Source: Azospirillum thermophilum | Lineage (GTDB): Bacteria; Pseudomonadota; Alphaproteobacteria; Azospirillales; Azospirillaceae | Assembly: GCF_003130795.1 (NCBI RefSeq) | Contig: NZ_CP029352.1 | Location: forward strand, 1,094,001 to 1,158,000 | Direction: 5' to 3' | DNA: 64,000 nt | Shown: positions 16,858 to 37,618 of the stretch, one piece after another | Numbering within the stretch: the first letter of the stretch is position 1 | Layout of the letters: every line of letters begins with the position of its first letter | Position numbers and translations under genes: made by a program | The notes under the pieces: generated by a model | Seen by the model: the letters and a program-made list of their open reading frames with translations, nothing else | Databases searched by the model: none | What the model was told of the DNA's origin: nothing

Positions 16858-17169
16858 ATGGACTGGGTGACCGCCCTTGGCATCGTCGCGCTCGCGGCCG
16901 GAGGGACCATCAGCGCGGTGGTGCTGGTGGCCGTGGGGTCGATCCGCCGCAGCCTCAACGAGCATGCCGTCCGCCAGTCGCAGCAGATCAAACGGTTGAC
17001 CGAGAGCGTCGCCGCCCTTACCAGTCAGCAGCAGGCGGCCGAGACCCGTATCCAGCAGTTGAGCGACGCCAATCGCCGACTGGCCGAGGAGCTGACCGCT
17101 CTCGGCGAACGGCTGAGCGACGGGGACACGATGCCCCGCCACTCACGATCGGCCCGGTTGCTCCACTGA
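16858..17169 (+). CDS. small membrane-anchored coiled-coil protein
   Basis: A 103-residue protein with one N-terminal transmembrane helix (about residues 5-27, GIVALAAGGTISAVVLVAVG) followed by a charged, heptad-like helix (about 35-90, Gln/Leu/Ala-rich). This is a single-pass protein with a cytoplasmic or periplasmic coiled coil. No family is recognised. Its TGA overlaps the ATG of the following methyltransferase gene by one base (TGATG), so the two are translationally coupled. The open frame extends upstream of the chosen ATG, but the helix starts cleanly here. Confidence 0.65.
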   Translation: MDWVTALGIVALAAGGTISAVVLVAVGSIRRSLNEHAVRQSQQIKRLTESVAALTSQQQAAETRIQQLSDANRRLAEELTALGERLSDGDTMPRHSRSARLLH

Positions 17170-18526: not shown

Positions 18527-21500
18527 TCAATAGTCCCGCTCGAACTTCAGACCGAACTGGGTGTCGGAATTGGCGCCGACCCCGGCCTCGGCCTTCAGGC
18601 TCTTGGTGATGTCCACCTCGACCTTGGCACGGCTCTGGTTGGCGCCGATGCCCTGCTCCACGCCGACATAGACGCGGTCGCTGACGTAGCGGCCGGCCTG
18701 GACCGAACCGCCGCGGCCGTTGGCGCCCGGCGTGAACTCCAGCCGGTCCACCCCCAGCCCGCGCCGCACCGTGTCCATGATGCCGCCGCCTCCGCCATAG
18801 CCGGCGAGCGAGGCGGCGGACTGGGCGAGCTGCACCGCCTCCACCCCGCTCAGGTCGGCGACGGACTTGCCGAACAGCACGCCGGCCAGCACCTCGTCCT
18901 GCGGCAGGCCCTGGGGCGAGGTCAGCTCCACCTTGGGCTGGCGCGCGGTGCCGGTGACGACGACCTGCGCGGTGATGCCGTTGGCCGATGCCTCCGCCAG
19001 CAGGTCGAGGCGCGGGTCGATGGGCTGGGTGCCGTCGAAGTCGAGGTTGCCGCGCTTGAAGGTGAAGGTCTTCGCCAGCAGGTCGAGCTGGCCCTTCAGC
19101 ATGCCGAAGCGGCCGGTCACCTCCGGCGCGGCGGCGGTGCCGCGGACGCGGAGCTGGCCGCCGAGTTCCGCCTGCAGGCCGCGGCCTCGGACATAGATCT
19201 GGTTCGGCGCGTCCACCGTCAGGTCGAGGTCCAGCACGAAGGGCGAGGGCGGCGCATCCGCCGCCGGCTCGGCCCGGGCGGATGCGGACTTGGCGGATGC
19301 GGACTTGGCGGAGGCGGATTTGGCGGAGGCGGATTTGGCGGAAGCAGGCTTGGCCGAGGTCGCTTTGGCAGGAGCCGGTTTGGCGGCTCCCGGTTTGGCC
19401 GCGCCGGCCTTGCCCTTGCCGCGCCGGCCGCCGCCGACCTCGACCACGTCCAGCGTCACGACGTTGGGCGGCAGCCGGTCGGGGATCTGCACCTCCGCCC
19501 GCCGGACACGGATCGGACCGGCGAGGCGGGCGTGGGTGAAGCCGCCGGTCACCGTCAGGTCGGCGCCGACCTCGCCGGTCATCAGGTCGTTCTCGACCAG
19601 GCGCGCATTGTCCGCCTGCACGACGAGGTCGAGCTGGCGGTCGGCCGCCGCCGCCGGCCGGATGACCCCGCGGGCGCTGACGGTGCCGCCGTTGCGGGTC
19701 CGGCCGCGGAAGGTCTGGATGGTGAAGACGTCGCCGTCGCCGACCAGCCGCGCCTCGATGTCGCTGATGACGGCGCCGGAGGCCCGGTTCTCGTAGCGCC
19801 CGCCGCTCATCGCCACCGTGCCGCCCAGCCGCGGCGCCTCGACCGTGCCGCCGGCCCGGACGTCGAGCCGGAGCGTGCCGCGCGCCCGGTCGCCCGACGC
19901 GGCGAGCAGGTCGTCGGCGATGGCCGCGTCGATGGTGCCGTTGACCGCAGCCTCCAGCGCCCCCTGGGCGGAACCGAGACGGCATAGCTGGCCGGGTCCA
20001 TCACCAGCGGCACCGCGGCGGTCAGGCTGATCCGGCCGGAGTTGGTGGTGGTCGCGGCATCGCCGTCGACCGACAGGCGGCGGTCGCGCCACTGCGCCCG
20101 GACGGTGGCGTTGACTCCGGGAACGCCGGCGCGGGACGCCTCCTGCGCGTGCAGGCCGGCGACGCGCAGCGTGGCGTCCGCCTGGGGGTTGCGCACGGTG
20201 CCGCCCAGCGTCGCCTGGGCGTTCAGCGTGCCGTCGAGCCGCAGCGCCGGGCTGGCGAGCCGCGCCAGCGCCATCGGCACCTGATCGAGGCGGATCTCCC
20301 CCCTCAGCCGCTCGCCGGTGAGGCCGAGGTCGGCGGCGAGCCGGGCGCCGCCGCTGACGATCTGCAGCCCGGCGACCTCGTAGCGGCGGTCGCCGAGGGT
20401 GATGGTGGCGGGGCCGGTGGCGCGGAAGGTCTCGTCCTGGTAGCGGCCCTGGAACCGCTCGATGCGGATGCGGGTGAGCGATGCGTCGCCGCTCAGGGTG
20501 CCGGCGAGGTCGAGCGCCAGCGGGCTCTGCCCGGCCCCGGTGGCGGCGGCCTGGAAGCCCGCCCTGGCAAGGCTGCCGTCCAGGCTGGCGGTGACGCCGG
20601 CCAGCGCGTTGCCGGCGGCGGAGCCGTCCGCCAGTTCCAGCCGCGCCTTGCCCGAGGGGGTGCCCAGCGCGTCGGCGACGTCGGCGCTCGCGGTCAGGCG
20701 GCGGGCGGTCAGCAGCGGTCCGCCCTCCCCCTCCACCCGCAGGTTGGTGGCGTCGGCGCTCAGGCTGGCGGCCTGCCTGCCGCCGCGGCCGTCGAGCGAC
20801 ACGGTGAAGCCGGCAGCGCCGTCGAGCGGCAGGCCCGCCAGCTCCGACAGGCCCTTCAGGTCGGGCAGCGCGCCCTCCAGCCGGCCGGTCGCCAGCAGCG
20901 TGTCGAGCGCCACCGTCACGGCACCGGTCACCCGGTTGCCGCCGCTGGCGACCGCGAGGTCGGAGAGACGGAGCGTGTTCCGCCCGTCGAGCGCGTAGGC
21001 GCCGTCCAGCGACAGGCCGGCGCCGGCCATCTGGGTGCGGGCGCGCAGGCGGCCGGTCGGGGCGGCCGGCAGCTTGGCGGCGGTGACGGTCACCTCGGTG
21101 GCGCCGAAGCGGCGGTCGGCGACGGCGAGGTCGCGGCCGGTCAGCGTGGCCTCCGCCTCCAGCCCGTCGAGCGGACCGCGAGCCGTGGTGTCGAGCGGAC
21201 CGCGAGCCGTGGCGTCGAGGGCGAGCGAGCCCGCCATCGGCGTGCCGACCGCCTCGCCCACCGGGTCGAGCTTCGCGATCTCCAGCCTGGATCTGGCATC
21301 GACCCGGCCGCCGGCCAGCGCGGCGCTGGCGGTGAGGCGGCCGTTGCGGCCGTCGACCTCCAGGCGGTCGAGCCGCATCGCCCCGTCCGGCGCCATGGCG
21401 GCGACCGCCTTCAGCGTCGCGCGGTCGCCCAGCACGGCATCGGCCGGGGTGCCGGTGGACAGGTCGCGCGCCTCGCCCGACAGTTCGGCCGAGAGCGCGC

Positions 21501-22961
21501 CGTCGCCCCCCGGCGCACCGGCCCCTTCAGCGACAAGGCACCGCCCAGCGGCCGGCCGGCCAGGGCGGAGAGTTTGGACAGGTCGTCGGCGACCAGCGAC
21601 AGCGCCAGATCGGCCGTCTGTCCCCAGCCGCCGACCTGCCCCTCGGCGCCGGCCTTCGCCCCGGCGGCGTCGAGCGCCAGCCGGCCGATCCGGACGTCGC
21701 CCTTGCCGGTGTCCATGCGGCTGCGCAGTTCCAGCCTCACCTCCGGCCCGGCGACCGGGGAGAGGGCGGCATCGCCGGCCGCCACGTCGCGCAGGACGGC
21801 GGTGAGCGCCACGGCGAGGTCGTCGAGCGTGCCCTCGACCGATCCGCTCGCCATCCCCTCGCGCCAGGACAGGCCGGAGGTCATGCCGTGGAGCGCGGAG
21901 TCCGGGCCGGCGGCGGCCTCCCAGGTCAGGGCGAGCCTCTTGTGGTCGGCGGAGACGGTCCCGGTCAGCGAGGCGGTGCCGGCGGCGGCGCGCAGGGCGA
22001 CCGGGCGCAGCGCCAGCCCGCCGTCCGGCGCGACGACGACCGTGGCGTTCAGCGCCGGGTCCGGCCCGACCAGCGCCGCGGAGGACCCGGCGAGCACCGC
22101 CGGCAGGTCGCCCCCGGCGGTCAGGGTGACGGCATGGCCATCCGCGATGCGGCGGACGGCGGCGTCGGCGGTCAGCCTGCCGCGCCCCTGCGCCTCGGCC
22201 ACCAGGGCGCCCTTCCAGTCGTCGAGCGGTCCGGCGCCGTCGAGCGTCACCGTCACCGGCGGCAGGCCGGGGATGGAGAGCGTGCGGGCGATCACCCCGC
22301 CCTCCGGCTCCGACGCCTTGAGGTCGAGGTCGAGCCTGTTCCTCGCCGGGTCGAAGGCCGCGGCCAGCACCGCCTGCCCCGGCTTGTCGTCGATGCGGTC
22401 GACGCGCAGGTGGCTGTCGAGCCCGCCGCCGCCGCGCTCCAGCCGGGCGTCGCCGCCGATCCGCAGCACCGCCGGCTCGCCGAGCAGCGCCTCGCCCAGC
22501 CGCAGCTCGTCCACCGCCAGCCGCCTGACCTCGATCCCGACCGGAAGCTGGGGAAGCAGGGAGGCCGACTGTCGCTCGTCCGCCGGCTCCGGCTGCGGCG
22601 GCCGGGTGCCGACCGGCGCGCGCACCACCTCGATCCTCGCGGCCTCCAGCGCCTCCAGCGAGACGCGGCGGGCCAGCAGGGCGCCGGGCGACAGGCGGAT
22701 GTGCAGCCCCTGCAGCGACAGCCAGCGGCCCTGGCTGTCGGCGACCTCGGCGCTGGCGACGGTGAGGTCGAAGGGGATGCCGCCCTCGATCGCGCCGAGG
22801 GTGAGCGTCATGTCCGGCCCGGACGCCGCCCCCTCGATGGTGGAGGCGAGCCACTGGCGCCCGCCGGCGCTCTGCAGCCAGGCATAGCCGGCGGCAACGC
22901 CCGCCAGCAGCAGGACGACGAGCCCCGCCAGACCGATCAACCCGTACCGTACCGCCTTCAC
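18527..22961 (-). CDS. tamB: translocation and assembly module protein TamB (two apparent frameshifts)
   Basis: The inner-membrane partner of TamA: a signal-anchor helix at the N-terminus (from GTG at 22961, VRYGLIGLAGLVVLLLAG), then a very long periplasmic beta-rich chain that bridges to the outer membrane, ending with the DUF490/TamB domain (C-terminus QFGLKFERDY). It is read in three successive frames. Frame changes fall at a run of six Cs (21506-21511) and a run of five Cs (19960-19964); adding one C to each restores a single frame of 1478 residues, normal for TamB. An Ala/Lys/Ser repeat insertion lies in the last third. TamAB inserts certain outer-membrane proteins and carries phospholipids. 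tamA lies immediately upstream. Confidence 0.9.
19284..19358 (-). repeat. 15-bp tandem coding repeats in tamB
   Basis: Five units of about 15 bp (GCGGA[C/T]TTGGCGGA[T/G/A]) encode repeated S-A-K-S-A in the protein, and degenerate units continue to about 19400. The result is a Lys/Ala/Ser-rich, probably flexible tract inserted before the conserved C-terminal domain. Confidence 0.85.
21166..21213 (-). repeat. 24-bp tandem duplication in tamB
   Basis: Two copies of a 24-bp unit differing by one base encode a duplicated octapeptide (TARGPLD-type). It is in frame and looks recent. Confidence 0.8.
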
Positions 22962-23043
22962 GCCAACGTCCTTTCCCAGCCTCGCATCCCTGTTCAACCG
23001 GCATACCGCCCGACCCTCCCGCCCGAATAGGGCGAAAGGATGG

Positions 23044-24966
23044 TCAGAAGGCCTGCCCCAGGCTGAGGTAGAGCTGCCAGCGGGCATCGCCGCCGGCCGC
23101 GTTCAGCGGCACGCCGACATCGACCCGCAGCGGGCCGAAGTCGGTGTAGTAGCGCAGGCCGACGCCGGTGCCGACCCGCAGCGGCTCGCTGAAGTCGGGA
23201 AAGGCGCGGTCGTAGACGGTGCCGGCATCGACGAAGGGCACGACGCCGATGCTGTCCGTCACCTTGATGCGCAGCTCCGCCCCGATCTCGAACAGCGACC
23301 GGCCGCCGGAGGGGTCGTCGAAGCGGTCGCGCGGCCCGGCCTTCTGGAAGCCGTAGCCGCGCACCGAGCCGCCGCCGCCGGCATAGAAGCGGTGGTCCGG
23401 CGGGATCTGGTCGAGCGTCGCCCCGACGATGCTGCCGAGCCCGATCCGGCCGGCAGCGACATAGCGCCCGTCGCCGGCGATGTCGTGGTAGACCGAGCCG
23501 TTCAGCAGGGTCGAGGTGAAGGGCCGGTCGGTGTCGCCGCCGGCCGGGAACCAGGGCGTCACCTGGGCCGAAAGGCGATAGCCCCTGGTCGGGTTCAGCA
23601 GGTCGTCGGTGCCGTTCCAGGCGGCGGCCAGCGGCACGCCGACGAAGGCGGTCTGGTAGGTCCGCTCCTGCGTGCGCACCCTTCCCCGCTCGCCGCTGAC
23701 GCCGTAGGACAGCGTCAGCCGGTCGGTCGCCTGCCATTCCAGCGATCCGCTGAGAACGGTCGCCACCCGGTCGTAGGCCGGCGGCTGGTCGGACACCACC
23801 TGGAAGTTCAGGACCAGCGACTGCTTCAGCAGCAGGAAGTCCGGCTTGCGGAAATTCACGTTGAAGCGCAGGTCCGGCAGGTTGTCGGCCGTCGAGGCCT
23901 TGCCGCCGGAGGAGCCGGCCACCCGCCCGACATCGACGCCGACGCGGAGCTGCTCCGCCCCGCCGAACAGGTTGCGGTGGCCCCAGTAGGCGTTGGCGCC
24001 GATGCCCTCCTCGGTCGAATAGGTGACGCCGGCGCCGATGAATCGCCGCTTGCGCTCGACCACGTTGACCTCCACCGGGGTGACGCCGTCGGGGCCGGGC
24101 TGGTCGGCCAGCCGCACGCGCACCGTGTCGAACACCTCCAGCTTCGCGATGTCCTGGCGGGCCTTGTCGGTCTGGGCCGGGACATAGACCTCGCCCGGCT
24201 TCCAGGGCAGCCGGCCGCGGACCAGATCCTCGTCCACCCCCTCCAGCCCGGTGATCCGCGTCTCGCCGTAGCGCACCAGCGGGCCGGGATCGACCGTGTA
24301 GGCGACGTCCATCGTGCGGTCGGAGTGGTCGACCACCACCCGCCGGTCCGGCACCTTGGCGTAGCCGTAGCCGCGCTGGACCAGCCGGCCGACCAAGGCC
24401 CCCTCGGCGTCGAGGACGAGCTGGCCGCGCGCCGGCTCTCCGGCCTTCAGCCCGAACTCCGCCGGGTCGATGGCGTCGCCCGGCAGCGGCGCCCCGCCGG
24501 CGGTGGCGGCGGTGACCGTCTTGATGCGGTAGAGCGGCCCCGGCTCCACCGCGACCGTCACCTTGACCGGCTGGGCATCGGCCGGCCGGGCGTCGCCGTC
24601 GATGCGGATGTCGAGCCGGGCATCGTAGTAGCCGGCGGAGCGCAGCGCCGCCTGCAGCCGGTCGCGGTCCGACTCGGCGCGGCGCTCCAGCCCGATCAGC
24701 GAGGGCGGCGGATCGTCCTTCAGCTCCACCAGCGAGGAGCTGGCCCGCAGCAGATCGTTCAGGTCGCCCTCGACGCCGGTCAGCTCGACCTCGTAGGGCA
24801 GGCGGCCGGCGGCCGGCTCTTCCCCGGCCTGGGCGTCGGGCGCGGCCGGGGGAGCGGCGGGCGGGGCCGTGGCGTCCTGCGCGAAGCCGGCCGCCGCCGG
24901 CACGGCGAGCAGCGCTGCGGCGATCAGGGCGGACGGCAGAAGGGGAGCGGAGGCGGAACGGTTCAT
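23044..24966 (-). CDS. tamA: outer-membrane assembly module protein TamA
   Basis: A 640-residue Omp85-superfamily protein. After the ATG at 24966 there is a signal peptide (cleaved near AAAGFAQ). POTRA-type domains follow (about residues 50-290) and then a 16-strand beta-barrel (about 330-640). The barrel carries the conserved loop-6 region around GGGGSVRGYG, a VRGY-type motif, and ends with the outer-membrane signature ...LYLSLGQAF. It pairs with TamB, encoded 82 bases downstream. The frame extends 87 codons before this ATG, but that part has no signal-peptide logic. Confidence 0.93.
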   Translation of the reverse strand: MNRSASAPLLPSALIAAALLAVPAAAGFAQDATAPPAAPPAAPDAQAGEEPAAGRLPYEVELTGVEGDLNDLLRASSSLVELKDDPPPSLIGLERRAESDRDRLQAALRSAGYYDARLDIRIDGDARPADAQPVKVTVAVEPGPLYRIKTVTAATAGGAPLPGDAIDPAEFGLKAGEPARGQLVLDAEGALVGRLVQRGYGYAKVPDRRVVVDHSDRTMDVAYTVDPGPLVRYGETRITGLEGVDEDLVRGRLPWKPGEVYVPAQTDKARQDIAKLEVFDTVRVRLADQPGPDGVTPVEVNVVERKRRFIGAGVTYSTEEGIGANAYWGHRNLFGGAEQLRVGVDVGRVAGSSGGKASTADNLPDLRFNVNFRKPDFLLLKQSLVLNFQVVSDQPPAYDRVATVLSGSLEWQATDRLTLSYGVSGERGRVRTQERTYQTAFVGVPLAAAWNGTDDLLNPTRGYRLSAQVTPWFPAGGDTDRPFTSTLLNGSVYHDIAGDGRYVAAGRIGLGSIVGATLDQIPPDHRFYAGGGGSVRGYGFQKAGPRDRFDDPSGGRSLFEIGAELRIKVTDSIGVVPFVDAGTVYDRAFPDFSEPLRVGTGVGLRYYTDFGPLRVDVGVPLNAAGGDARWQLYLSLGQAF

Positions 24967-25201
24967 CGAACCAATAGGTAGACCGCGGCGCTGCCGAAGC
25001 AAAAGGACTTGCAACGCTGCCACGACGGAATTTCGCACTAGACCGGACGGCCAGTGCTTGCCTTTCCGGCGAGGATCATTATATTGCGCCGCAACAGTTT
25101 CCCCGACGAGCCCTCCGAACTCCCTTCGGCGGGCCTTTTGTTGTGCGTTTGGCAGTCGCTGCGCGAGCGGGTCGGGGGTGCCATTGCGAGACCAAGGCTC
25201 C
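24967..25201. other. intergenic region between divergent tamA and typA
   Basis: 235 bases with no gene. On the plus strand, GCCCTCCG...CGGCGGGC (25110-25134) followed by CTTTTGTTG can form an imperfect stem-loop with a T-rich tail about 60 bases before typA. It could be a leader structure or attenuator of typA, but the stem is short and has a mismatch. Confidence 0.4.
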
Positions 25202-27028
<1,827 letters not shown>

Positions 27029-27061
27029 CCCTTGCCTGCCCCGACAGGCCGGTAATACCCT

Positions 27062-27104
27062 GCAAGCCCCCCGCCCCGACCGGGACGGGGGGCTTGCTTC
27101 ATTT
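27062..27104 (+). terminator. intrinsic terminator after typA
   Basis: Perfect 12-bp stem (GCAAGCCCCCCG / CGGGGGGCTTGC) with a 12-base loop, followed by TTCATTTCC, 33 bases past the typA stop. Confidence 0.9.
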
Positions 27105-27138
27105 CCGGACCAGCGCTCCCCGCGTTCCAAGGACCCAG

Positions 27139-28805
27139 ATGGCGACGACCACCGACGACCGAGGCTCCCGTCCCCTTGCGGCCCTGCGCGGCCTGCTGCC
27201 GGGCTTCGGGCCGGCCGGCGGGGCGGCGCTGCTGCTGGCGCTGCTGATCGCCGCCCCCATCGTCGCCGTCTTCGCGCAGTCGGTGGCCGACACCGGCGGG
27301 CTGTGGCGGCACATGGCGGACACGGTCCTGACGGATTACGTGGTCAACACGCTGATCCTGCTGGGCATCGTCGGCTGCGTCACGCTGGTGGCCGGGGTTG
27401 CCGCCGCCTGGACGGTGACGATGCACGCCTTCCCCGGACGCGGCGTGCTGCAATGGGTGCTGCTGCTGCCTCTGGCCATGCCGGCCTATGTGCTGGCCTA
27501 CACCTACACCGATTTCCTGCAGTTCGCCGGCCCGCTGCAGAGCTGGCTGCGGGCGCTGACCGGATGGCGGCACGGCGACTACTGGTTCCCCGACGTGCAG
27601 ACCGCCTGGGGGGCCGGCTTCGTCCTGTCCTTCGTGCTCTACCCCTATGTCTACGTGCTGGCCCGCGCCGCCTTCCTGTCGCAGTCGGTCTGCGTGCTGG
27701 AGGCGAGCCGGACGCTCGGCTGCACCCCTTCGGGGCCTTCCGGCGGGTCGCCCTGCCGCTCGCCCGGCCTGCGCTGGCCGCCGGGGTCGGCTATGCGCTG
27801 ATGGAGACGCTGGCCGATTTCGGCGCGGTGCGCTACTTCGGCATCGACACCTTCACGGTCGGCATCTACCGCACCTGGTTCGCGCTGGGCAGCCCGGTGG
27901 CCGCCGCCCAGCTCGCCGCGGCGCTGCTGCTGTTCGTCCTGCTGGTGATGGGGCTGGAGCGGCTGTCGCGCGGGCGCATGCGCTTCCACCAGACGACCAA
28001 CCGCTACCGCAGCCTGCCGGCGCCGCGGCTGTCGCGCCGGGGCACGGCGGTGGCCTGGGGCGTCTGCCTGACCCCGCCGCTGTTCGGCTTCTTCCTGCCG
28101 GCCGGGATCCTGCTGTGGATGATCGGCCGCGGCGGCACCGAGATCACCGCCGCCCGCTTCCTGGAGCTGACCGCCAACACCGTCCTGCTGGGGGTCTGCG
28201 GCGCGGTGCTGGTGGTGGGGACCGCCCTGCTGGTGATCCATGGCGTGCGCCACGACCGCAGCCGCATGGCGGCCCAGGCGGTCAAGCTCGCCTCGCTCGG
28301 CTATGCCACGCCGGGCACGGTGATCGCGGTCGGCATCCTGATCGTCATGGGAGCGGCCAACCAGTGGCTCGGCCTGTCGGCCGGCGCGCTGCTCGGCGGC
28401 ACCATCCTCGGCATCCTCTACGGCTACCTGATCCGCTTCTTCGTGGTGGCCTACGGGCCGCTGGAGGCCGGCTTCGCCAAGATCAGTCCCAATCTGGAAG
28501 GGGCGGCGCGCTCGCTCGGCCACAGCCCGCTGCAGGTGCTGCGCCGGGTGCATCTGCCGCTGCTGCGCCCCAGCCTGCTGAGCGCCGCCATGCTGGTCTT
28601 CGTCGACGTGGCGAAGGAGCTGCCGGCGACGATGATCCTGCGCCCGTTCAACTTCGACACGCTGGCGATCGAAGCCTTCCGCATGGCCTCGACCGAGCGG
28701 CTGGACGACGCCGCCCTGCCCGCCCTGGTCATCGTTCTCGCCGGCCTGCTGCCGGTGATCTACCTCAGCCGGACCATCGCCGCGTCGCGGCCGGGGCAGC
28801 GGTGA
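27139..28805 (+). CDS. fbpB: iron(III) ABC transporter permease, fused two-domain (apparent frameshift)
   Basis: Inner-membrane permease of a Fe3+ (FbpB/SfuB) importer, with two binding-protein-dependent permease domains fused in one chain (about 12 helices). EAA-type loops are visible around LEASRTLGC (first half) and NLEGAARSLGHSP (second half). The frame breaks at CACCCCTTC (run of four Cs, 27725-27728): adding one C continues TLGCTPFGAFRRVALPLARP into the downstream frame, giving 555 residues. It is followed by the binding-protein and ATPase genes, so the importer is complete if the break is an artefact. Confidence 0.9.
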
Positions 28806-28956
28806 CGCGGCGGTCACAAAAGTACCGGTCCGCATCGCATTTATTCTAAATCGCTTTTAATGCCGCGCGGCATCCTGACCGCTGGACAGATCCCGATGCG
28901 ATTGATATTCACTCTCCCTATCAGTGAGAACAATTCGCATTCCCAGGAGTCCATTG
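28806..28956 (+). promoter_or_regulatory. candidate iron-responsive promoter region of fbpA
   Basis: An AT-rich interval holding three suggestive elements: TTTATTCTAAA (28840-28850), whose TTCTAAA half matches the Irr/ICE half-site; a perfect 14-bp palindrome ATGCCGCGCGGCAT (28860-28873); and TGAGAAC-A-ATTCGCA (28925-28939), a 7-1-7 arrangement like a Fur box, which overlaps the area just before the AGGAG site. These matches are by eye to remembered consensus sequences. Confidence 0.45.
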
Positions 28957-29976
28957 ATGCCCGTGACGAAGATCGCCGCCGGCCTGACCTTCACCGTGGC
29001 CGCCCTGCTGTCGGCCAGTGCCGCCGCGCAGGAGGTGAATGTCTACAACTCGCGCCACTACAATACCGACCGGGTGATCTACGAGGAGTTCACCAAGGCG
29101 ACGGGCATCAAGGTCAACATCATCGAGGGCAACCACGACGAGCTGATCCAGCGCATGAAGTCGGAAGGGGCCAACAGCCCGGCCGACCTGTTCATCACCG
29201 TGGACGCCGGCCGTCTGGCCGCCGCGGCCAAGGAAGGCCTGCTGGCCCCGGTGACGTCGCCCGCCCTGGCGGCGGTCCCGGCCACCCTGCGCGCCCCGGA
29301 CGGCGCCTGGTACGGCCTGTCCAGCCGCGCCCGCGTCATCGTCTATGCCCGCGACCGGGTGAAGCCGGAGCAGGTCAAGGACTATGAGGATCTCGCCAAG
29401 CCGGAGTGGAAGGGCAAGGTCCTGACCCGCAGCGGCACCCACCCCTACAGCCTGGCGCTGACCGCCTCGATGATCGAGGCGCAGGGCGAGGAGAAGACGG
29501 AAGCCTGGGTGAAGGGCCTCGTCGCCAATCTGGCCCGCCCGCCGAAGGGCGGCGACACCGACCAGATCAAGGCGGTCGCCGCCGGCGAGGGCGACCTCGC
29601 CATCGCCAACACCTACTACGTCGGCAAGCTGATGGTCTCCGAGAAGCCGGAGGACCGGGCGGTGGCCGAGAAGATCGGCGTGATCTTCCCCAACCAGGGC
29701 AACCGCGGCACCCACGTCAACCTCAGCGGCGCCGGCGTCGTCAAGACCGCCCCGCACCCGGAGGCCGCCCGCAAGCTGCTGGAGCATCTGCTGAGCCCCG
29801 AGGCGCAGCGCGTCTTCGCCGACGGCAACATGGAGTTCCCGGTCAACCCGGCCGTGAAGCCCCACCCGAAGCTCGTCGAGCTGGGCAGCTTCAAGCAGGC
29901 CGAGGTGAACGCCGCCTCCTTCGCGCAGTATACCCCGGCCGCCCTGCGCATCATGGACCGCGCCGGCTGGAAGTGA
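28957..29976 (+). CDS. fbpA: iron(III) ABC transporter substrate-binding protein
   Basis: A 339-residue periplasmic ferric-binding protein. A signal peptide (cleaved near ASAAAQE) precedes VNVYNSRHYNTDRVIYEEF, the usual start of the mature FbpA/FutA fold. The iron-ligand tyrosine pair is in AIANTYYVGKL. The ATG at 28957 follows AGGAG; an upstream in-frame ATG would add 11 residues with no benefit. It lies between the permease and ATPase genes and has its own putative iron-controlled promoter. Confidence 0.94.
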   Translation: MPVTKIAAGLTFTVAALLSASAAAQEVNVYNSRHYNTDRVIYEEFTKATGIKVNIIEGNHDELIQRMKSEGANSPADLFITVDAGRLAAAAKEGLLAPVTSPALAAVPATLRAPDGAWYGLSSRARVIVYARDRVKPEQVKDYEDLAKPEWKGKVLTRSGTHPYSLALTASMIEAQGEEKTEAWVKGLVANLARPPKGGDTDQIKAVAAGEGDLAIANTYYVGKLMVSEKPEDRAVAEKIGVIFPNQGNRGTHVNLSGAGVVKTAPHPEAARKLLEHLLSPEAQRVFADGNMEFPVNPAVKPHPKLVELGSFKQAEVNAASFAQYTPAALRIMDRAGWK

Positions 29977-29999
29977 CCGCCGGCTGAGACCGGAGCCCG

Positions 30000-30028
30000 C
30001 CCCCGGTGCCGCCTCGGCGCGCCGGGGG
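30000..30028 (+). other. intercistronic stem-loop between fbpA and fbpC
   Basis: CCCCCGG ... CCGGGGG encloses an inner GCCG-CCT-CGGC hairpin. It has no clear T tract, so it may stabilise the abundant fbpA message or reduce read-through rather than end transcription. Confidence 0.5.
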
Positions 30029-30081
30029 TTGCGCTTTGGAGGGGCCTGCCCCCAAATGGACCGTGCCAGAACGGGTGAACG

Positions 30082-31182
30082 ATGACCACTCCCCCTGCCT
30101 CCCCGACCACGACCGGCCGCGTCTCCATCACCGACGTTTCGCACCATTACGGCCGCCATCAGGTGCTGGCCGGCGTGTCGCTGACGGTCGAGCCGCAGGA
30201 GGTGGTGTGCATCCTGGGACCGTCCGGCTGCGGCAAATCCACGCTGCTGCGCCTGGTGAGCGGGCTGGAGACCCTGCAGGCGGGCAGCATCGCCGTGGGG
30301 GACACCCTGCTGGCGGAGGCGGGGTACGGGCTGCCGCCGGAGCGCCGGCCGGTCGGCATGATGTTCCAGGACTTCGCCCTGTTCCCCCACCTGACGGTCG
30401 CCGGCAACATCGAGTTCGGCCAGCAGCACCGTCCGCGCGCCGAGCGGCGCCGGCGGACGGAAGAACTGCTGGCGATGGTCAACCTGTCGGACTATGCCGG
30501 CAGCTATCCGCACATGCTCTCGGGCGGGCAGCAGCAGCGCGTGGCGCTGGCCCGCGCCATGGCGCGCGACCCGGCGGTTCTGCTGCTGGACGAGCCCTTC
30601 TCGGCGCTCGACGAGCAGCTTCGCCGCTCGGTGCGCGAGGAGGTGGTGCGGCTGATCCGCGCCACCGGCGTCGCCACCCTGGTGGTCACCCACGACCCCG
30701 AGGAGGCGATGGAGATCGGCAGCCGCGTGGTGGTGATGGCGGACGGCCGCGTCGTGCAGGCCGATACGCCGCGGCAGCTCTACCGCAACCCGGCCAACAG
30801 CTTCGTCGCGCGGCTGTTCGGCGAGGTGAACCGCTTCGAGGCGACGGTGGACGGCGGCGAGCTCGCCACCCCTTTCGGCCGCATCCCGGCGCCGGCGCTC
30901 TCCTCCGGCACCCGGGTCGAGGTCGCCTGCCGGATCGAGGATCTGGAGCTGGCGCCCGCCAAGCGCGCGCCGGACGGGCTGCGCGTCCGGGTGCGGCACG
31001 CCAACTTCCTCGGGGCCTCCACCCGCGTCTGCCTCGACGCCCTCGGCCCGGCGGGGGAGCCGGCGGGCGGCTTCCGGTCGGAGATCCACGCCCGGCTGCC
31101 GGGCCTCGTCGAGGTCACCCCCGGCGAGGAGCTGGTCGCCCGCGTCGAGCCGCGCCGGCTGATGGTGTTCCCGGCGGCATGA
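30082..31182 (+). CDS. fbpC: iron(III) ABC transporter ATP-binding protein
   Basis: A 366-residue ABC ATPase of the FbpC/PotA type. Walker A GPSGCGKST (46-54), Q-loop FQDFALFPH, signature LSGGQQQRVALARA (146 on), Walker B LLLDEP (167-172) and switch His in VVTHDPEEA. The C-terminal 120 residues form a TOBE-like regulatory domain. It energises the FbpB permease. Its stop codon is exactly where similarity of the antisense ccdB remnant ends. Confidence 0.95.
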   Translation: MTTPPASPTTTGRVSITDVSHHYGRHQVLAGVSLTVEPQEVVCILGPSGCGKSTLLRLVSGLETLQAGSIAVGDTLLAEAGYGLPPERRPVGMMFQDFALFPHLTVAGNIEFGQQHRPRAERRRRTEELLAMVNLSDYAGSYPHMLSGGQQQRVALARAMARDPAVLLLDEPFSALDEQLRRSVREEVVRLIRATGVATLVVTHDPEEAMEIGSRVVVMADGRVVQADTPRQLYRNPANSFVARLFGEVNRFEATVDGGELATPFGRIPAPALSSGTRVEVACRIEDLELAPAKRAPDGLRVRVRHANFLGASTRVCLDALGPAGEPAGGFRSEIHARLPGLVEVTPGEELVARVEPRRLMVFPAA

Positions 31183-31336
31183 AGGCGGGGTTGAGCGGAG
31201 CCGCCGGCCGTGGCGCCTCGCCCAATGGCAGCGACGGCGCCACGAACCGTGTGTTCAGGTCACGAAGGATGTCTGCCTGAAGGTCGAGCAGATAGCCGGC
31301 TCCATCCAGACGGCGGTGGACGTCGAACCGCGCCAT
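31181..31336 (-). pseudogene. truncated CcdB-like toxin remnant
   Basis: Read from ATG at 31336 on the minus strand, about 52 residues (MARFDVHRRLDGAGYLLDLQ ... RPAAPLNPAF) look like the N-terminal half of CcdB-family gyrase poisons. The GYLLD-Q-D-L-NTR pattern and following PLLP-type strand are recognisable from the family. The similarity stops abruptly at the fbpC stop codon, and what follows is merely antisense to fbpC. The catalytic C-terminal end (the final WGI-type helix) is missing, so it cannot be active. No ccdA antitoxin frame is visible upstream. Confidence 0.6.
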
Positions 31337-31394
31337 CAATAAGGGCGATGCCCCCCGGCATAATCGGGATCAAGGGCAGACGGGATCGCAGGTC

Positions 31395-31429
31395 CGAAAC
31401 GAAACGGGCCGGGAGTCGCCCCCCGGCCC
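31395..31429 (-). terminator. intrinsic terminator of the CsbD operon, minus strand
   Basis: On the minus strand, 8-bp stem GGGCCGGG / CCCGGCCC (31406-31429) with an 8-base loop, followed by GTTTCGTTTC. It is about 20 bases beyond the stop of the 56-residue gene. Confidence 0.7.
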
Positions 31430-31448
31430 TTGCCCGCGGCGCGACCGG

Positions 31449-31619
31449 TCAGTCGCGTCCGCTCTCGCGCTTGATCTCCGGCCGCTCGCCCATCTCGTCC
31501 CATTTCTCCTGCACGGGCTTGTCCGGGTTGCCGGAGGCCTTGCCGGTGTCCTCGATGAGTTCCTCCTCGATCCGCTGGGCGGCGTCGGAGGGGGCGTCGT
31601 CCTTGCGGCCGGCGGACAT
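31449..31619 (-). CDS. small acidic protein coupled to a CsbD-like gene
   Basis: A 56-residue highly charged, hydrophilic peptide (many Glu, Asp, Lys), without membrane segment or Cys; probably disordered. Its ATG overlaps the stop of the CsbD-like gene by one base (TGATG), so it is translated from the same message. No family is recognised. The pairing suggests a stress role, as inference only. Confidence 0.7.
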   Translation of the reverse strand: MSAGRKDDAPSDAAQRIEEELIEDTGKASGNPDKPVQEKWDEMGERPEIKRESGRD

Positions 31620-31795
31620 CACTCGTTCCCCCGCAGGACGTCCTTCACCTTGCCCGCCACCTTGTCGACCTTGCCCTCGGCCTTGTCGGCGCGGCCGGAG
31701 TTCTTCATCTCCTGGTCGCCGGTCAGGTCGCCGGCCTGCTTCTTGATCTCGCCCTTCAGCTCCTTGCCGGCGCCGGTGATGCGATCGCTGTTCAT
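31619..31795 (-). CDS. CsbD-like stress protein
   Basis: A 58-residue CsbD-family protein: the core ITGAGKELKGEIKKQAGDLTGD followed by KAEGKVDKVAGKVKD is the signature of this small helical stress-induced family. In other bacteria it is under general-stress sigma control and no biochemical activity is known. Upstream on the minus strand is GTAAC-N16-TGTT (31861 to 31837), one base from GGAAC in the -35 and one from CGTT in the -10. Confidence 0.9.
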   Translation of the reverse strand: MNSDRITGAGKELKGEIKKQAGDLTGDQEMKNSGRADKAEGKVDKVAGKVKDVLRGNE

Positions 31796-31857
31796 GTTTC
31801 CCTCCTCTTCGTCCGTGAAGCCGGACTGAGGAGACCAACAGCCCGGACCGCGAAGAG

Positions 31858-32271
31858 TTACGGCCACGGTCCGGCAAGGGCGGCCCGCAGCTGGCCGGCC
31901 AGCGCGTCGCGCTCCGCCGGGTCGTAGGGGGCGGCATGGCCGGAGCCCCAGACCGGGCCGGGCCAGGCGGGGTCGCCGCGGGTGCGGCCGATGACGTGGA
32001 CATGGAGCTGCGGCACCATGTTGCCGAGCGCCCCGACATTCAGCTTGTCGGGGGAGAACAGCCGCTCCACCGCCTCCGACGCCCGGGCGATCTCCTCGAT
32101 CAGCGTCGCCCGCTCGGCGGCGGGCAGGCGGTGGATCTCCGTCAGGCCGGGGCGCATCGGCACCAGGATCAGCCAGGGCCACACGCGGTTGTCCATCAGG
32201 AGCACGCGGCACAGTCCCAGATCCGTCACAGGAACCGTATCGGCGGCAAGCCGTTCATGCAGGCGGAACAT
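31858..32271 (-). CDS. HIT-family hydrolase
   Basis: A 137-residue histidine-triad protein of the Hint/Fhit superfamily. The HxHxH motif is QLHVHVIGR (His-Val-His-Val-Ile; catalytic His second), and the N-terminal RLHERLAADT plus VWPWLILVPMRP strand fit the family. HIT proteins hydrolyse nucleotide phosphates or phosphoramidates. The ATG at 32271 gives the normal length; an extension upstream is possible but lacks family features. Confidence 0.88.
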   Translation of the reverse strand: MFRLHERLAADTVPVTDLGLCRVLLMDNRVWPWLILVPMRPGLTEIHRLPAAERATLIEEIARASEAVERLFSPDKLNVGALGNMVPQLHVHVIGRTRGDPAWPGPVWGSGHAAPYDPAERDALAGQLRAALAGPWP

Positions 32272-32649
32272 GCTTTGTCTCTTTCGCTGGGAGGGGGGAA
32301 GGCGGGATAAGCCGTATGGCTGCCCGGTCAAAGGCGGCACTGGTTACCGGCTGTCGGAAGTAGTATAGATCTTCGGCGCGATCCTTGCCGGATGGGTTGG
32401 TGCGTCCTGCGAACGACTGCACCGGCGAGGATTGCTCCATGTCGCGACGGGGCGGGCCTTTCCGCAAGCGGCGCGACCGGGGATTGAACGTCCAGGCAGC
32501 GGGTTTTTGAAGGGTTCGGTTCGGTCCGAGGGTTCAGGTCGGGGCGGCGATGCCGTCCGCCTGCGCTTCGGGCCTGATCGTGCGGGGTTGGGCCGGCGGG
32601 GAAGGAGCCCCGGCGGCCGCAGAGGTGGCGGGAAGCGAGAAGGACACTC
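32272..32649. other. intergenic region upstream of the ndvB-like gene
   Basis: About 380 bases between divergent genes. No coding frame on either strand stands out. It ends with GGCGGGAAGCGAGAAGGACACTC ahead of the ATG at 32650, a plausible ribosome site. No recognisable operator was found. Confidence 0.4.
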
Positions 32650-35288
32650 ATGCGCAAGTCGGCGATCCTGGTGCTGTTCCTGGTGATCCTGGGCAATGTG
32701 GGGGCCTGGGCGCTGTTCAACCGCCCGGTGTCCGAGCGGTCCTGGGCGGGGGCGGTCAACGGCGTGTCCTACACCCCTTCCACCCGAACAAGAGCCCGTC
32801 GAAGGGCGACAAGGCCTCGGCCGAGGACATCGAGAAGGACATGGCCGCGCTCGACGGCTCGGTGAAGGGGGTCCGCACCTATTCGACCACCGACGGGTCC
32901 GAGCTGGTCGCCCCCATCGCCAGGAAGTACGGGCTGCCCGTGACGGCCGGCGCCTGGATCGCCGGCAAACCCGAGATCGACGAGCCGGAAATCTCCGGCC
33001 TGATCAAGCTGGCCCGCGCCAACGCCAACGTGAAGCGCGTGCTGGTCGGCAACGAGGCCATCCTGCGCACCGACGTGACCGTCCCGCAGGCCATCGACTA
33101 CATCAGGCGCGTCAAGAAGAAGGTCAACGTCCCGGTCTCCACCGCCGAGCCGTGGCACGTCTGGCTGGCGCATCCCGAGCTGGTGGAGGCGGTGGACTTC
33201 ATCGCCGTGCACCTGCTGCCCTACTGGGAAGGGCTGCCGATCGACCAGTCGGTCGACTACGCGATGCTGCGCTACAACGAGCTGAAGACGAAGTATCCCG
33301 GCAAGCACATCCTGATCTCGGAAATCGGCTGGCCGGCCGACGGGCCGTGGCGCCGCGGGGCGGAGGCGAGCCAGGTCAACCAGGCGAAGTTCATCCGCAA
33401 CTTCCTGAACGTCGCGGCGCAGAACAAGCTCGACTACTTCATCATGGAGGCCTTCGACCAGCCCTGGAAGCGCGAGATCGAGGGCACGGCGGGCACGAGC
33501 TGGGGCCTGTGGGACGCCAACCGCAACCCGAAGTTCCCGATGATCGGCGGCGTGCAGGAGCTGCGCAACTGGCCGATCATGTGCGGCACCGCCATCGCGC
33601 TGGGCTTCCTGCCGCTGGTCTTCTTCCTGTGGCGGCGCGACGACCTGAAGATGGGCGGCCAGCTCTTCTACGGCGCGCTGATCCAGGCGGTGGCCTCGGT
33701 GCTGGTCCTGACGGTCAGCGCCGCCTCGGCCGCCGGCCTCGCCGTCACGACCGAGATCGCCTGGGGCCTGCTGATCTTCTGCCAGCTCGTGCTGTTCGCC
33801 GTGATGCTGATCGACGGGCTGGAACTGACCGAGGTGGTCTGGCAGGCGCGCTTCAAGCGGCGCTTCCAGCCCTGCTCCGCCGCGCCCGGCCCCAACGCGG
33901 CCAAGGTGTCGATCCATGTGCCCTGCTACAACGAGCCGCCGCACATGGTCATCCAGACGCTGGACGCGCTGGCCCGGCTCGACTATCCGAACTACGAGGT
34001 GCTGCTGCTCGACAACAACACCAGGGATCCGGAGGTCTGGAAGCCGGTCGAGGCCTATTGCAGGCAGCTCGGGCCCAGGTTCCGCTTCTTCCACCTGGAC
34101 AACTGGCCGGGCTTCAAGGCCGGCGCGCTGAACTTCGGCCTCGCCCAGACGGCTCCGGACGCCGAGCACATCGCGGTCATCGACAGCGACTACCAGGTCC
34201 ATCCCGACTGGCTGAAGGCGACCATCCCGCACTTCGACCGGCCGGAGGTCGGCTTCGTCCAGTCGCCGCAGGACTATCGCGAGTGGGACCACGACCTGTT
34301 CCAGCGGATGATCAACTGGGAATATGCCGGCTTCTTCCACATCGGCATGATCCAGCGCAACGAGCGCAACGCGATCATCCAGCACGGCACCATGACCATC
34401 ATCCGCAAGTCGGCGCTGGAGAAGGTCGGCCGCTGGGGCGAGTGGTGCATCACCGAGGACGCCGACCTCGGCCTGCGCCTGTTCGAGCATGGCTATGAGG
34501 CCGTCTACATGCCGGAGAGCTACGGCAAGGGCCTCGTCCCCGACAGCTTCTCCGCCTACAAGACGCAGCGCTTCCGCTGGGCCTACGGCGCGGTGCAGAT
34601 CCTGAAGCACCACTGGCGCGACCTGCTGCCGACCGGCAAGCGGCTGACCGCCGGGCAGAAGTACCATTTCGTGACCGGCTGGCTGCCCTGGTTCGCCGAC
34701 GCCGCCCACATGATCTTCGGCATCGCCGGCATCCTGTGGTCGGTCGGCCTGCTGGCCTTCCCGAAATATTTCGAGTTCCCGCCCAACGCCTTCATGATCC
34801 CGACGCTGAGCGTCTTCGCCTTCAAGGTCGGCGCCAGCCTGTGGCTCTACGAGGCGCGGGTGAAGTGCGGCTTCTGGGACAAGGTCGGCGCCGCCATCGC
34901 CGGCATGGCGCTGACCCATACGGTGGGCCGCGCCATGTGGCTCGGCATCTTCACCTCCGGCCGCCCCTTCGTCCGCACGCCGAAGTGCGAGAACCAGCCG
35001 GCGCTGATGCAGGCCTTCCTGATGGCGCGCGAGGAACTGGTCCTGCTGGTGTCGCTGTGGGGGGCCGCGACCGCCATCGTCATGGTCTTCGGCCATGAGA
35101 ACCGCGACGCCTTCATGTGGTCGGGCCTGCTGGTGGTGCAGTCGCTGCCCTACCTGTCGGCCTTCATCACGGCGCTGATCAACGTCTTCCCCAACCTGAA
35201 CCTGGGCAACCGCCGGCCCCAGCCGGCCGGCGACCAGACCGCCGGCGACAAGGCGGCGGGCGGCACGGTGGGCGCCGGGGCGGACTGA
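32650..35288 (+). CDS. NdvB-like glucan synthase with GH17 and GT2 domains (apparent frameshift)
   Basis: Inner-membrane enzyme with an N-terminal anchor helix, a periplasmic GH17 domain (about residues 35-260; acid/base Glu136 in VGNEA, nucleophile Glu225 in ISEIGWP), membrane helices, a GT2 domain (DNNTRDPEVW, DSDYQVHPDWL, TEDADLGLRL, QRFRWAYG) and more helices. This layout is that of NdvB-type enzymes making periplasmic or cyclic beta-(1,3)-glucans, where GH17 acts as a transglycosylase. The frame breaks at a run of four Cs (32774-32777); one added C joins VSYTP to FHPNKSPSKGD, giving 879 residues. Product chemistry is inferred. Confidence 0.85.
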
Positions 35289-35309
35289 TCCGCCCCTTCC
35301 CACCCCGCA

Positions 35310-35358
35310 GAAAACGCAAAAGCGGCGCCGGAGACTTTCCGGCGCCGCTTTCGTTCGT
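35310..35358. terminator. bidirectional intrinsic terminator
   Basis: 12-bp stem AGCGGCGCCGGA / TCCGGCGCCGCT (35321-35349) with a 5-base loop. On the plus strand it is followed by TTCGTTCG, and on the minus strand by TTTTGCGTTTT. It separates the convergent ndvB-like and ohr genes. Confidence 0.9.
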
Positions 35359-35372
35359 GAGGCGGCAGGCGG

Positions 35373-35792
35373 TCAGGCGACCGACAGCGTCACGTCGATG
35401 TTGCCGCGGGTGGCGTGCGAGTAGGGGCACACGATGTGGGCCTTCTGCACCAGCTCCTCCGCCTTCGCCCGGTCGACGCCCGGCAGCGCGATGGTGAGCG
35501 CGACCTCCAGCCCGAAGCCGGTGCCGTCGTCGCGCGGACCGATGCCGACCGCGGCGGAGACCGAGGCGTCGGCCGGGATGGTCGCCTTCTCCTTGCCGGC
35601 GACGAACTTCAGGGCGCCGAGGAAGCAGGCGGAATAGCCGGCGGCGAAGAGCTGTTCCGGATTGGTGCCGTCGCCGTTGCCGCCGAGCTCCTTCGGCGGG
35701 TTCAGCCGGACCGACAGCTTGCCGTCGTCGCTGGAGGCGCTGCCGTCACGCCCGCCGGTCGCCGTCGCCTTGGCGGTGTAGAGAATGGCCAT
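35373..35792 (-). CDS. ohr: organic hydroperoxide resistance protein Ohr
   Basis: A 139-residue thiol peroxidase of the Ohr/OsmC fold that reduces fatty acid and organic hydroperoxides. Both catalytic cysteines are present: Cys56 (SACFLGAL) and Cys122 (IVCPYSHATRGN). The start has AGGAGGG nine bases upstream. It is divergent from ohrR with a palindromic operator between them, the standard arrangement of this system. Confidence 0.96.
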   Translation of the reverse strand: MAILYTAKATATGGRDGSASSDDGKLSVRLNPPKELGGNGDGTNPEQLFAAGYSACFLGALKFVAGKEKATIPADASVSAAVGIGPRDDGTGFGLEVALTIALPGVDRAKAEELVQKAHIVCPYSHATRGNIDVTLSVA

Positions 35793-35847
35793 GGTTCTTT
35801 CCCTCCTGTTCGGCCGCCGCAGCGGTCCGCTGTGTTCGTGGCGCCAT

Positions 35848-35878
35848 ATATCGCACGCTATTTGATAGCGCGCAATAT
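35848..35878. promoter_or_regulatory. OhrR operator candidate, 31-bp imperfect palindrome
   Basis: ATATCGCACGCTAT-TTG-ATAGCGCGCAATAT: 12 of the 14 positions in each arm pair, with mismatches only at the fifth and eighth positions. The inner CGCTAT-TTG-ATAGCG is perfect. It sits in the 187-base gap between divergent ohr and ohrR, where OhrR binds in other species. Confidence 0.8.
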
Positions 35879-35979
35879 GTTTTTGCGCGAGCAACCTGGA
35901 TTCCTGATATGGTGGGTTTGCCGGTGTTCTGCCGACCGCATGCGGGCCGGCGCCCCGTGCCGTTTTCCTGGATGCTCCA

Positions 35980-36420
35980 ATGACCGAACCGTCCGATCGT
36001 TCCCTCTCCCTCGACGCCCAGCTCTGCTTCGCCCTGCATTCGGCGACGCTCGCCTTCAACCGGCGCTACAAGCCGCTGCTGGACGAGCTTGGCCTGACCT
36101 ATCCGCAATATCTCGTGATGCTGGTCCTGTGGGAGCGGGACGGGGTGACGGTCACCGAGATCGGCAGCCGGCTGTTCCTCGATTCCGCGACGCTGACCCC
36201 CCTGCTGAAGCGGCTGGAGGCCGCCGGGATGGTCACCCGCGAGCGCGACCCCGAGGACGAGCGGCGGGTGCGCATCCGGCTGACCGCCCAAGGGCGCAGC
36301 CTGCGGGAGCGGGCGCGGTGCATTCCGCACGGCATGGCGGCGGCGACCGGCCTGTCGCTCGACGACCTCGTCCGGCTGCGCGACGAGCTGGTGCGGCTGC
36401 GCGACGCCATGGGCACCTGA
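35980..36420 (+). CDS. ohrR: MarR-family peroxide-sensing repressor OhrR
   Basis: A 146-residue winged-helix repressor. Cys16 (AQLCFALHS) is the peroxide-sensing cysteine of OhrR, and a second Cys at 114 could form the disulfide used by the two-Cys class. The recognition helix region [32 protein letters not shown] is typical. It should repress ohr and itself from the palindrome upstream until oxidised by organic hydroperoxide. Confidence 0.94.
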
Positions 36421-36532
36421 GCGGCGGCGACCGGCCGTACAGGACCGTATCGTATACGACTGTTCTTGACTCGCGGACGGTCTCTGCCACACTCGAAGGT
36501 GGGCACGTACCCCTTCCGCGCGGAGGCCGGCC

Positions 36533-37096
36533 ATGGCGGACAGCATCGTCAGGCGACCCGAGATGCGACCGGAATTCCAGGTCCGCACCGCAGCCGGTGT
36601 GGAGCGGACCGGCAATGCGACCGACAACCGCAAGCAGCGCAACCCCCGCCAGGACCGCCGCAACCAGCAGCCGCCCAATCCCGCCCGCCGCCGCGTCTAC
36701 GACCTGCTGTTCGATGAGGTCGACCGGATCGACGACCTGCAGCCGCAACAGCGGGCGCGGATCAAGGACAATCTGCGCGCCCAGCTCACCGCCCGCAAAC
36801 CGCCGGACGAGGCGACGGCCCCTCCCCCGGCCGAGCAGGACGAAGGGGCGCTGGCCGATGCGCTTCTCCGGAACCCCCAGTCGGTCCCGGTCGATCACGA
36901 CCATATCGTCGGGCTCGCCGCCCCGACCCATGGGGAGCTGCCGCCCGACCTCGCGGCGGAGAACGCCCAACTGGCGCAGCAACTCCGCGACTGCCTGTCG
37001 CGCCATACCGAACGCGCCCGGCGGGTGGCGGTCTACCTGCACCTGCTGCTGAGCATCGACGGCGCCTTCCGCCCCCACACGATCCTCGACGTGTAG
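36533..37096 (+). CDS. protein of unknown function
   Basis: A 187-residue soluble protein with a basic, Arg/Gln/Asn-rich N-terminus (residues 25-55) and a helical remainder. There is no signal peptide, membrane helix or motif I recognise. Reading-frame composition is typical of the genome. It is likely a single-gene unit between ohrR and the DUF350 operon. The upstream segment has CGTATCGTATACGAC, a short palindromic element, and TTGACT, a possible -35, without a matching -10. Confidence 0.65.
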
Positions 37097-37205
37097 CGCC
37101 GCTCCTGGCCGGATTTCATAGGCGAGGCAATACCTTAGGTTGGTTGTCCGCACAGGCTTGCGCTGTCACGATGCGCCGCGACGGCGTAACCCGCGACGGT
37201 GCAGC

Positions 37206-37618
37206 ATGGATCCCATTCTCCAGTCCCTGACGACCCTGCCATCCTACCTGCTGTTCACGGTGACGATGCTGGGGTTCCTGCTGCTGTTCATCGCCGCCTA
37301 TACCGCCGTGACGCCCTACCGCGAGCTGGCGCTGGTCCGGCAGGGGAACACGACGGCGGCGGTCAGCCTGGGCGGCGCCATGATCGGCTTCGCCCTGCCG
37401 CTGATGAGCGTCGCGTCCCACACCACCAGCCTGCTCGACCTGGCGGTCTGGGGGTGATCGCGCTGGTGTCGCAGATCGTCGCCTACGTCATCGTGTCGCG
37501 CGTCCTGCTGCCGGGCTTCCGCGCCGGGGTGGAGGCGGACCGCATCGCCTACGGCGTGCTGCTGGGCAGCCTGTCGGTGGCGGTGGGGCTGCTGAACTAT
37601 GGCTCCCTGACCTATTGA
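37206..37618 (+). CDS. DUF350 (YjfL-like) membrane protein (apparent frameshift)
   Basis: A four-helix inner-membrane protein of the DUF350 family, which comes in two repeated halves. The first half (MDPILQSLTTLPSYLLFTVT... to LLDLAVWG) and the second half (VIALVSQIVAYVIVSRVLLPG... to LNYGSLTY) lie in different frames. The break is at the run TGGGGGT (37450-37454): one more G gives LAVWGVIALVSQ and 137 residues, the normal size. It is the first gene of the DUF350-DUF1190-GspS-like operon. Confidence 0.85.

Follow-up and report, generated by a model that had tools for sequence, protein, structure and literature searches.

The stretch examined here, referred to below as the window, is the 64 kb from position 1094001 to position 1158000 of contig C1 in an Azospirillum genome (G000; 6.78 Mb in 9 contigs, 70% G+C). 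It contains a tamB-like gene, a fused-type iron(III) ATP-binding cassette (ABC) transporter permease gene, an NdvB-like glycosyltransferase gene and a DUF350 gene, each of which changes reading frame at or beside a short run of C or G. The original prediction described five such breaks, each as one base missing from a G/C run, attributed them to systematic under-calling of bases in the assembly and regarded the genes as probably intact.

Split genes and frame breaks in the window

The observation is confirmed: all five runs lie exactly where they had been placed. To compare them with relatives, we counted the net number of additional bases up to 15 bases away from each site over distinct aligned sequences, dropping rows that fell below 66% identity or missed the site. 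The assignment to Azospirillum follows from named matches to the permease. For comparison, 24 genomes of this genus were drawn; the closest named relatives in the collection were A. agricola (L013) and A. doebereinerae (L034), at about 70–88% identity across syntenic stretches. No second assembly of the same strain surfaced: plasmid searches matched the DNA of the DUF350 gene at 74–79% only, and near-identical records may be excluded from such searches.

The tamB-like gene (18527–22961, minus strand) is divided among three frames by two breaks, and its last piece carries the whole TamB domain (PF04357, profile positions 2–381 of 381). In relatives this last piece sits within one longer frame. 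The first break in gene reading order lies at a CCCCCC run (21506–21511), where the location of the short base is ambiguous and 15 of 16 relatives have one base more; the sole exception, L034, has the extra base in a different alignment. The second lies at a CCCCC run (19960–19964), where all 16 relatives have one base more and the nearest of them differ beside the run, not within it. Adding two bases gives exactly 1479 codons, as the original prediction had stated, if the stop is counted and the GTG at 22961, one of several options, is taken as the start. Measured from stop to stop, the frames of 14 of the 16 relatives span 1448–1515 codons; of the other two, one has 2078 codons (L019) and one is cut by the end of its locus (L026). 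In addition, a short stretch of roughly two dozen bases in this gene was seen by eye to be duplicated in tandem, at window positions 21170–21220.

The permease gene (27139–28805, plus strand) has one break, at a CCCC run (27725–27728), and was identified by BPD_transp_1 in its downstream piece and by its homologues, which are mostly 557 aa long in Azospirillum and some of which carry the name iron(III) transport permease. Against P0123 and P0124, the alignment of one piece ends at residue 197 and that of the other begins at residue 199, and comparison with P0122–P0124 and P0126 leaves one or two residues at the junction. One extra base is present in 42 of 48 relatives, and none of the six exceptions (L037, L038, L043 and L054–L056) is an Azospirillum.

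The NdvB-like gene (32650–35288, plus strand) encodes a GT2 glycosyltransferase according to Pfam, with a weak GH17 match, and its intact homologues are 867–870 aa long. The single break is at a CCCC run (32774–32777), and the pieces match residues 1–42 and 44 onward of P0001, P0002 and P0005, with one junction residue. All 18 relatives carry one extra base, and in 6 of them the C run is longer by at least one. The DUF350 gene (37206–37618, plus strand; PF03994) breaks once, at a GGGGG run (37450–37454). Its pieces correspond to residues 1–83 and 85–137 of the 137-aa protein P0242, with identities of 97.6% and 96.2%, and they adjoin with a single junction residue in P0242 and in three further homologues. 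Here all 6 relatives have the extra base, and the G run is longer by at least one in 3.

Pooled over the five sites, one base more than in the window is found in 97 of 104 aligned relatives. The alignments thus firmly indicate a net loss of one base at each site, and the claim that a single added base rejoins two conserved halves held for the permease, NdvB-like and DUF350 genes, whose pieces adjoin in intact homologues. The claim that the base is missing from inside the run fared less evenly. Relatives whose run of the same base exceeds that of the window number 6 of 18 at the NdvB-like site and 3 of 6 at the DUF350 site, as against 0 of 16 at either tamB site and 1 of 48 at the permease site. 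Direct support for a missing base within the run is therefore limited to the NdvB-like and DUF350 genes. At the tamB and permease sites, relatives differ beside the run or within it by another base, and the short position there could be a neighboring base rather than the run itself.

One-base losses and gains across the genome

We searched for further breaks with a two-strand coding model that allows a penalized one-base skip, trained on G000 and run blind to the reported sites. Its first training, on the longest open reading frames, picked antisense frames and was unusable, and it was retrained on codon-position G+C. At the standard penalty the model called one-base losses in the window at 19974 and 21509 (both in the tamB-like gene), 27728 and 32777, and no other break anywhere in the 64 kb. 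The short DUF350 gene was modeled as two open reading frames at this penalty, and its loss was called, at 37447, only under the weakest one. Position 51864 was likewise called at the weakest penalty only, by one of two models. When random deletions were planted, 215 of 360 were detected and 145 missed (60% detection), so that break counts are lower bounds.

Applied to 1.658 Mb of G000 (24% of the genome), the model called 78 losses and 8 gains at the standard penalty, versus 2 losses and 7 gains in 1.090 Mb of Azospirillum relatives (Fisher test on loss:gain, P = 1.8e-5). Losses thus amount to about 47 per Mb in G000 and 2 per Mb in the relatives. L013 and L034 were dropped from the relatives sample, being covered by the G041 and G042 stretches. 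Gains were therefore not raised, with 8 in 1.658 Mb of G000 and 7 in 1.090 Mb of the relatives. A model trained on the relatives gave a similar picture (loss:gain 83:7 in G000 vs 4:8). Stronger penalties widened the contrast (64:4 vs 1:5, and 56:3 vs 0:4), and weaker penalties shrank it (122:16 vs 16:8, and 201:40 vs 44:25).

G/C runs were enriched beside the losses. A called G/C run of at least 4 lay within 5 bases of 35 of the 78 losses, versus 7.4 expected at random coding positions; among the 215 detected planted deletions the corresponding share was 6.0% (P = 1.3e-13). Break frequency rose with called length: per 1000 G/C runs of 2, 3, 4, 5 and 6 bases there were 0.09, 0.55, 3.5, 5.6 and 12.9 breaks, respectively, whereas the 26 runs of at least 7 had none. 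Each break was assigned to whichever run within 7 bases was longest, so part of this trend reflects chance assignments. No enrichment of A/T runs was found near losses, these runs being too scarce in this genome for a good test. The fault is sporadic, affecting a few per thousand runs: most runs are right, and not every run is shortened. Under-calling as originally proposed is supported and reaches beyond the window, as the loss:gain counts of 78:8 and 2:7 show, but it is not uniform.

Losses were called on four of the five sampled contigs (C1, C2, C3 and C5), and none was called in the single 20-kb stretch sampled from C4. In a contiguous 518 kb with 27 breaks, to which the DUF350 break had been added manually, five breaks within 17.5 kb had a simulated probability of 0.19, and the grouping of the five breaks in the window is therefore not unusual. 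Elsewhere (L164:1183–2031), three one-base losses were called inside 850 bases, and a single gene holds two of these.

Protein families continued across the breaks

To validate calls outside the window, where 74 losses were called, we compared the pieces on either side of 28 of them with Pfam. For 23 the choice was made because both pieces were fairly long; the last 5 came from the second sample, four of them chosen after identification of the larger piece and the fifth because both of its pieces were long. In 12 of the 28 pairs one domain continues across the break at adjoining profile positions. These are a peptidase of family M32, a histidine-kinase ATPase domain, a LysR regulator, a MoeA-PBP fusion, an NlpA lipoprotein, a Peripla_BP_6 protein, a carboxyltransferase and a 4Fe-4S domain (each with a weak E-value on one side, 0.002 and 0.006, respectively), a proton-antiporter subunit of the complex I type, a class II ribonucleotide reductase, glutamate synthase and a family 1 glycosidase. 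Two further pairs, ParE and GlnA, continue a full-length family. Another three (DegP-like, Eis-like and a chemotaxis receptor) are supportive, in that the pieces carry differing domains of what is usually a single chain.

The most telling of these genes is parE. The sole parE_Gneg gene that we found in G000, at about C2:1472336, covers positions 3–523 and 523–622 of the family in two different frames, while parE is unbroken, in one frame, in all 24 congeners. The other match in G000 is a frame of 885 aa, taken as GyrB. One Caulobacter paper describes topoisomerase IV as essential for the segregation of chromosomes (PMC4470285). Because a cell should not live without this enzyme, the parE break is probably false. 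The gene surfaced among the called breaks and was not picked in advance, which leaves the argument unweakened, yet it is one gene. The sole type I glnA found in G000, at about C2:1652279, is likewise split.

We had also considered as a decisive case the class II ribonucleotide reductase gene (L161:5263–8651, at about 925–929 kb on C1), which contains an intein with a LAGLIDADG domain and is split by a one-base loss. It was rejected in favor of parE: the split proves nothing because a second, unbroken copy lies at C2:716482. A separate observation is that small-subunit rRNA gave no match in G000, which is rated 99.99% complete; it gave none in 5 of 14 control genomes either, and these sequences may be masked there.

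Origin of the breaks and consequences for the genome record

We consider it very probable that all five breaks arose in the assembly and do not belong to the organism. The consensus would drop single bases sporadically, with short G/C runs as the most frequent setting, in the manner of the homopolymer errors that remain when an assembly is under-polished. Such under-calling explains the five sites together with the 74 further called losses, and it fits the surplus of losses relative to gains, their increasing frequency at longer runs, the enrichment at G/C runs, the extra base in relatives and the split parE. We infer that the raw reads would carry the longer sequence and that long-read consensus calling would be the cause. 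The cause given in the original prediction is thus very probably right, and the genes with the five breaks are probably intact in the organism.

The pattern resembles what has been described for long-read assemblies. In long-read-only bacterial assemblies the leftover errors are said to be mostly in homopolymer length (Polypolish, PMC8812927). In the Kastor test genome indel errors were mostly false deletions, which were most frequent following runs of four to five, with A/T as the commonest context (PMC12007338). Here too, single-base false deletions beside short homopolymers would split genes. In contrast to the Kastor genome, it is G/C and not A/T runs that are enriched, although at 70% G+C this genome has few A/T runs. 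Our detection is of the same type as in the GeneTack ab initio surveys of frame transitions, where a Pfam domain spanning the break likewise serves as validation and whose authors expect that sequencing errors account for one class of singletons (PMC3711429); unlike those surveys, ours covers one genome and far fewer genes with a purpose-built model. Essential genes that look broken have also been noted in public proteobacterial genomes, many of which the authors suspect to be sequence errors, close relatives being intact, although they cannot be sure (PMC6403173). Those cases were GroEL, RpoB and RpoB′, and PolA, in other genomes. A literature search on Azospirillum assembly, frameshifts and homopolymers returned nothing on this genome, as judged by titles.

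Several observations weigh against assembly error as the full account. At three of the five sites (both in tamB and that in the permease) a longer run is absent or nearly so in relatives, and 43 of the 78 losses in the sampled sequence lie more than 5 bases from any called G/C run of at least 4, so homopolymers are not the whole story. A depletion of G/C runs of 6 or more was sought and not clearly seen, and the run-length spectrum was not clearly altered. The relatives, too, show an excess of losses at the weaker penalties (16:8 and 44:25). Two weaker-penalty calls in the window, at 17141 and 53155, proved from relatives and Pfam to be ordinary neighboring genes. Among the 28 pairs checked, 8 were uninformative and 3 were not breaks (queA/tgt, a kinase with its regulator, and a transposase); some of the 74 calls outside the window are thus false. 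The closest DUF350 protein, P0242, is very similar and unsplit, which speaks for assembly error, but it is encoded on a contig of 2996 bases and hence not by this window, and the listing gives no source for it. Finally, mutS (L238, G000:C2:181271–183721) has a frame change of the gain type near its C-terminal end, and its match to the family ends at position 788 of 840.

The mutS change, which may be an error itself, keeps alive the best of the alternatives, namely that the breaks are real and recent frameshift mutations, in a mismatch-repair mutator or a decaying strain whose genes were lost in nature or in culture. Repair-deficient strains do shift homopolymers. However, mismatch-repair loss raises both gains and losses, and gains are no commoner here than in relatives; MutL is in a single frame; and parE and type I glnA are both cut in the sole copies found, whereas a cell lacking topoisomerase IV should not live. 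We therefore regard this explanation as very unlikely.

Still less probable is programmed recoding, in which ribosomal frameshifting or transcriptional slippage at the G/C runs would restore the frame. Each site does have a short run, but the runs are only 4–6 bases long, below the sizes described for recoding sites, which are said to be conserved and of at least 7 bases, slippage sites often being homopolymers of at least 8 or two shorter runs combined (PMC3711429). Furthermore, the relatives that carry the extra base at the five sites argue against it, no common slippery motif was noticed by eye in the alignments, and recoding would be required in many unrelated genes. We give even less credence to a sequence that is right as written in a strain tolerating hundreds of one-base losses, ParE included, through genome-wide correction at G/C runs by slippage of RNA polymerase or the ribosome. 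Independent chance decay of genes in one neighborhood is hardly credible: all five breaks do fall inside 17.5 kb, but the local break rate makes such a cluster compatible with chance, every break is a one-base loss, and the same type of break occurs on C1, C2, C3 and C5.

If the breaks are assembly errors, as we think, it would be wrong to annotate the genes that carry the five of them in the window as pseudogenes. The protein collection is already affected: a 334-aa piece of the permease (P0121) and an 83-aa piece of the DUF350 protein (P0241), both from a contig of precisely the same length as C1, are listed there as proteins. Scaling up from 78 in 1.658 Mb gives about 320 breaks of the type called by the model in the whole genome, or about 280 once false pairs (3/28) are subtracted, and perhaps 400–500 in all given the 60% detection (215/360). 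As biology the finding is ordinary, but it is a useful warning on this genome record, for which any claim of gene loss needs read support first.

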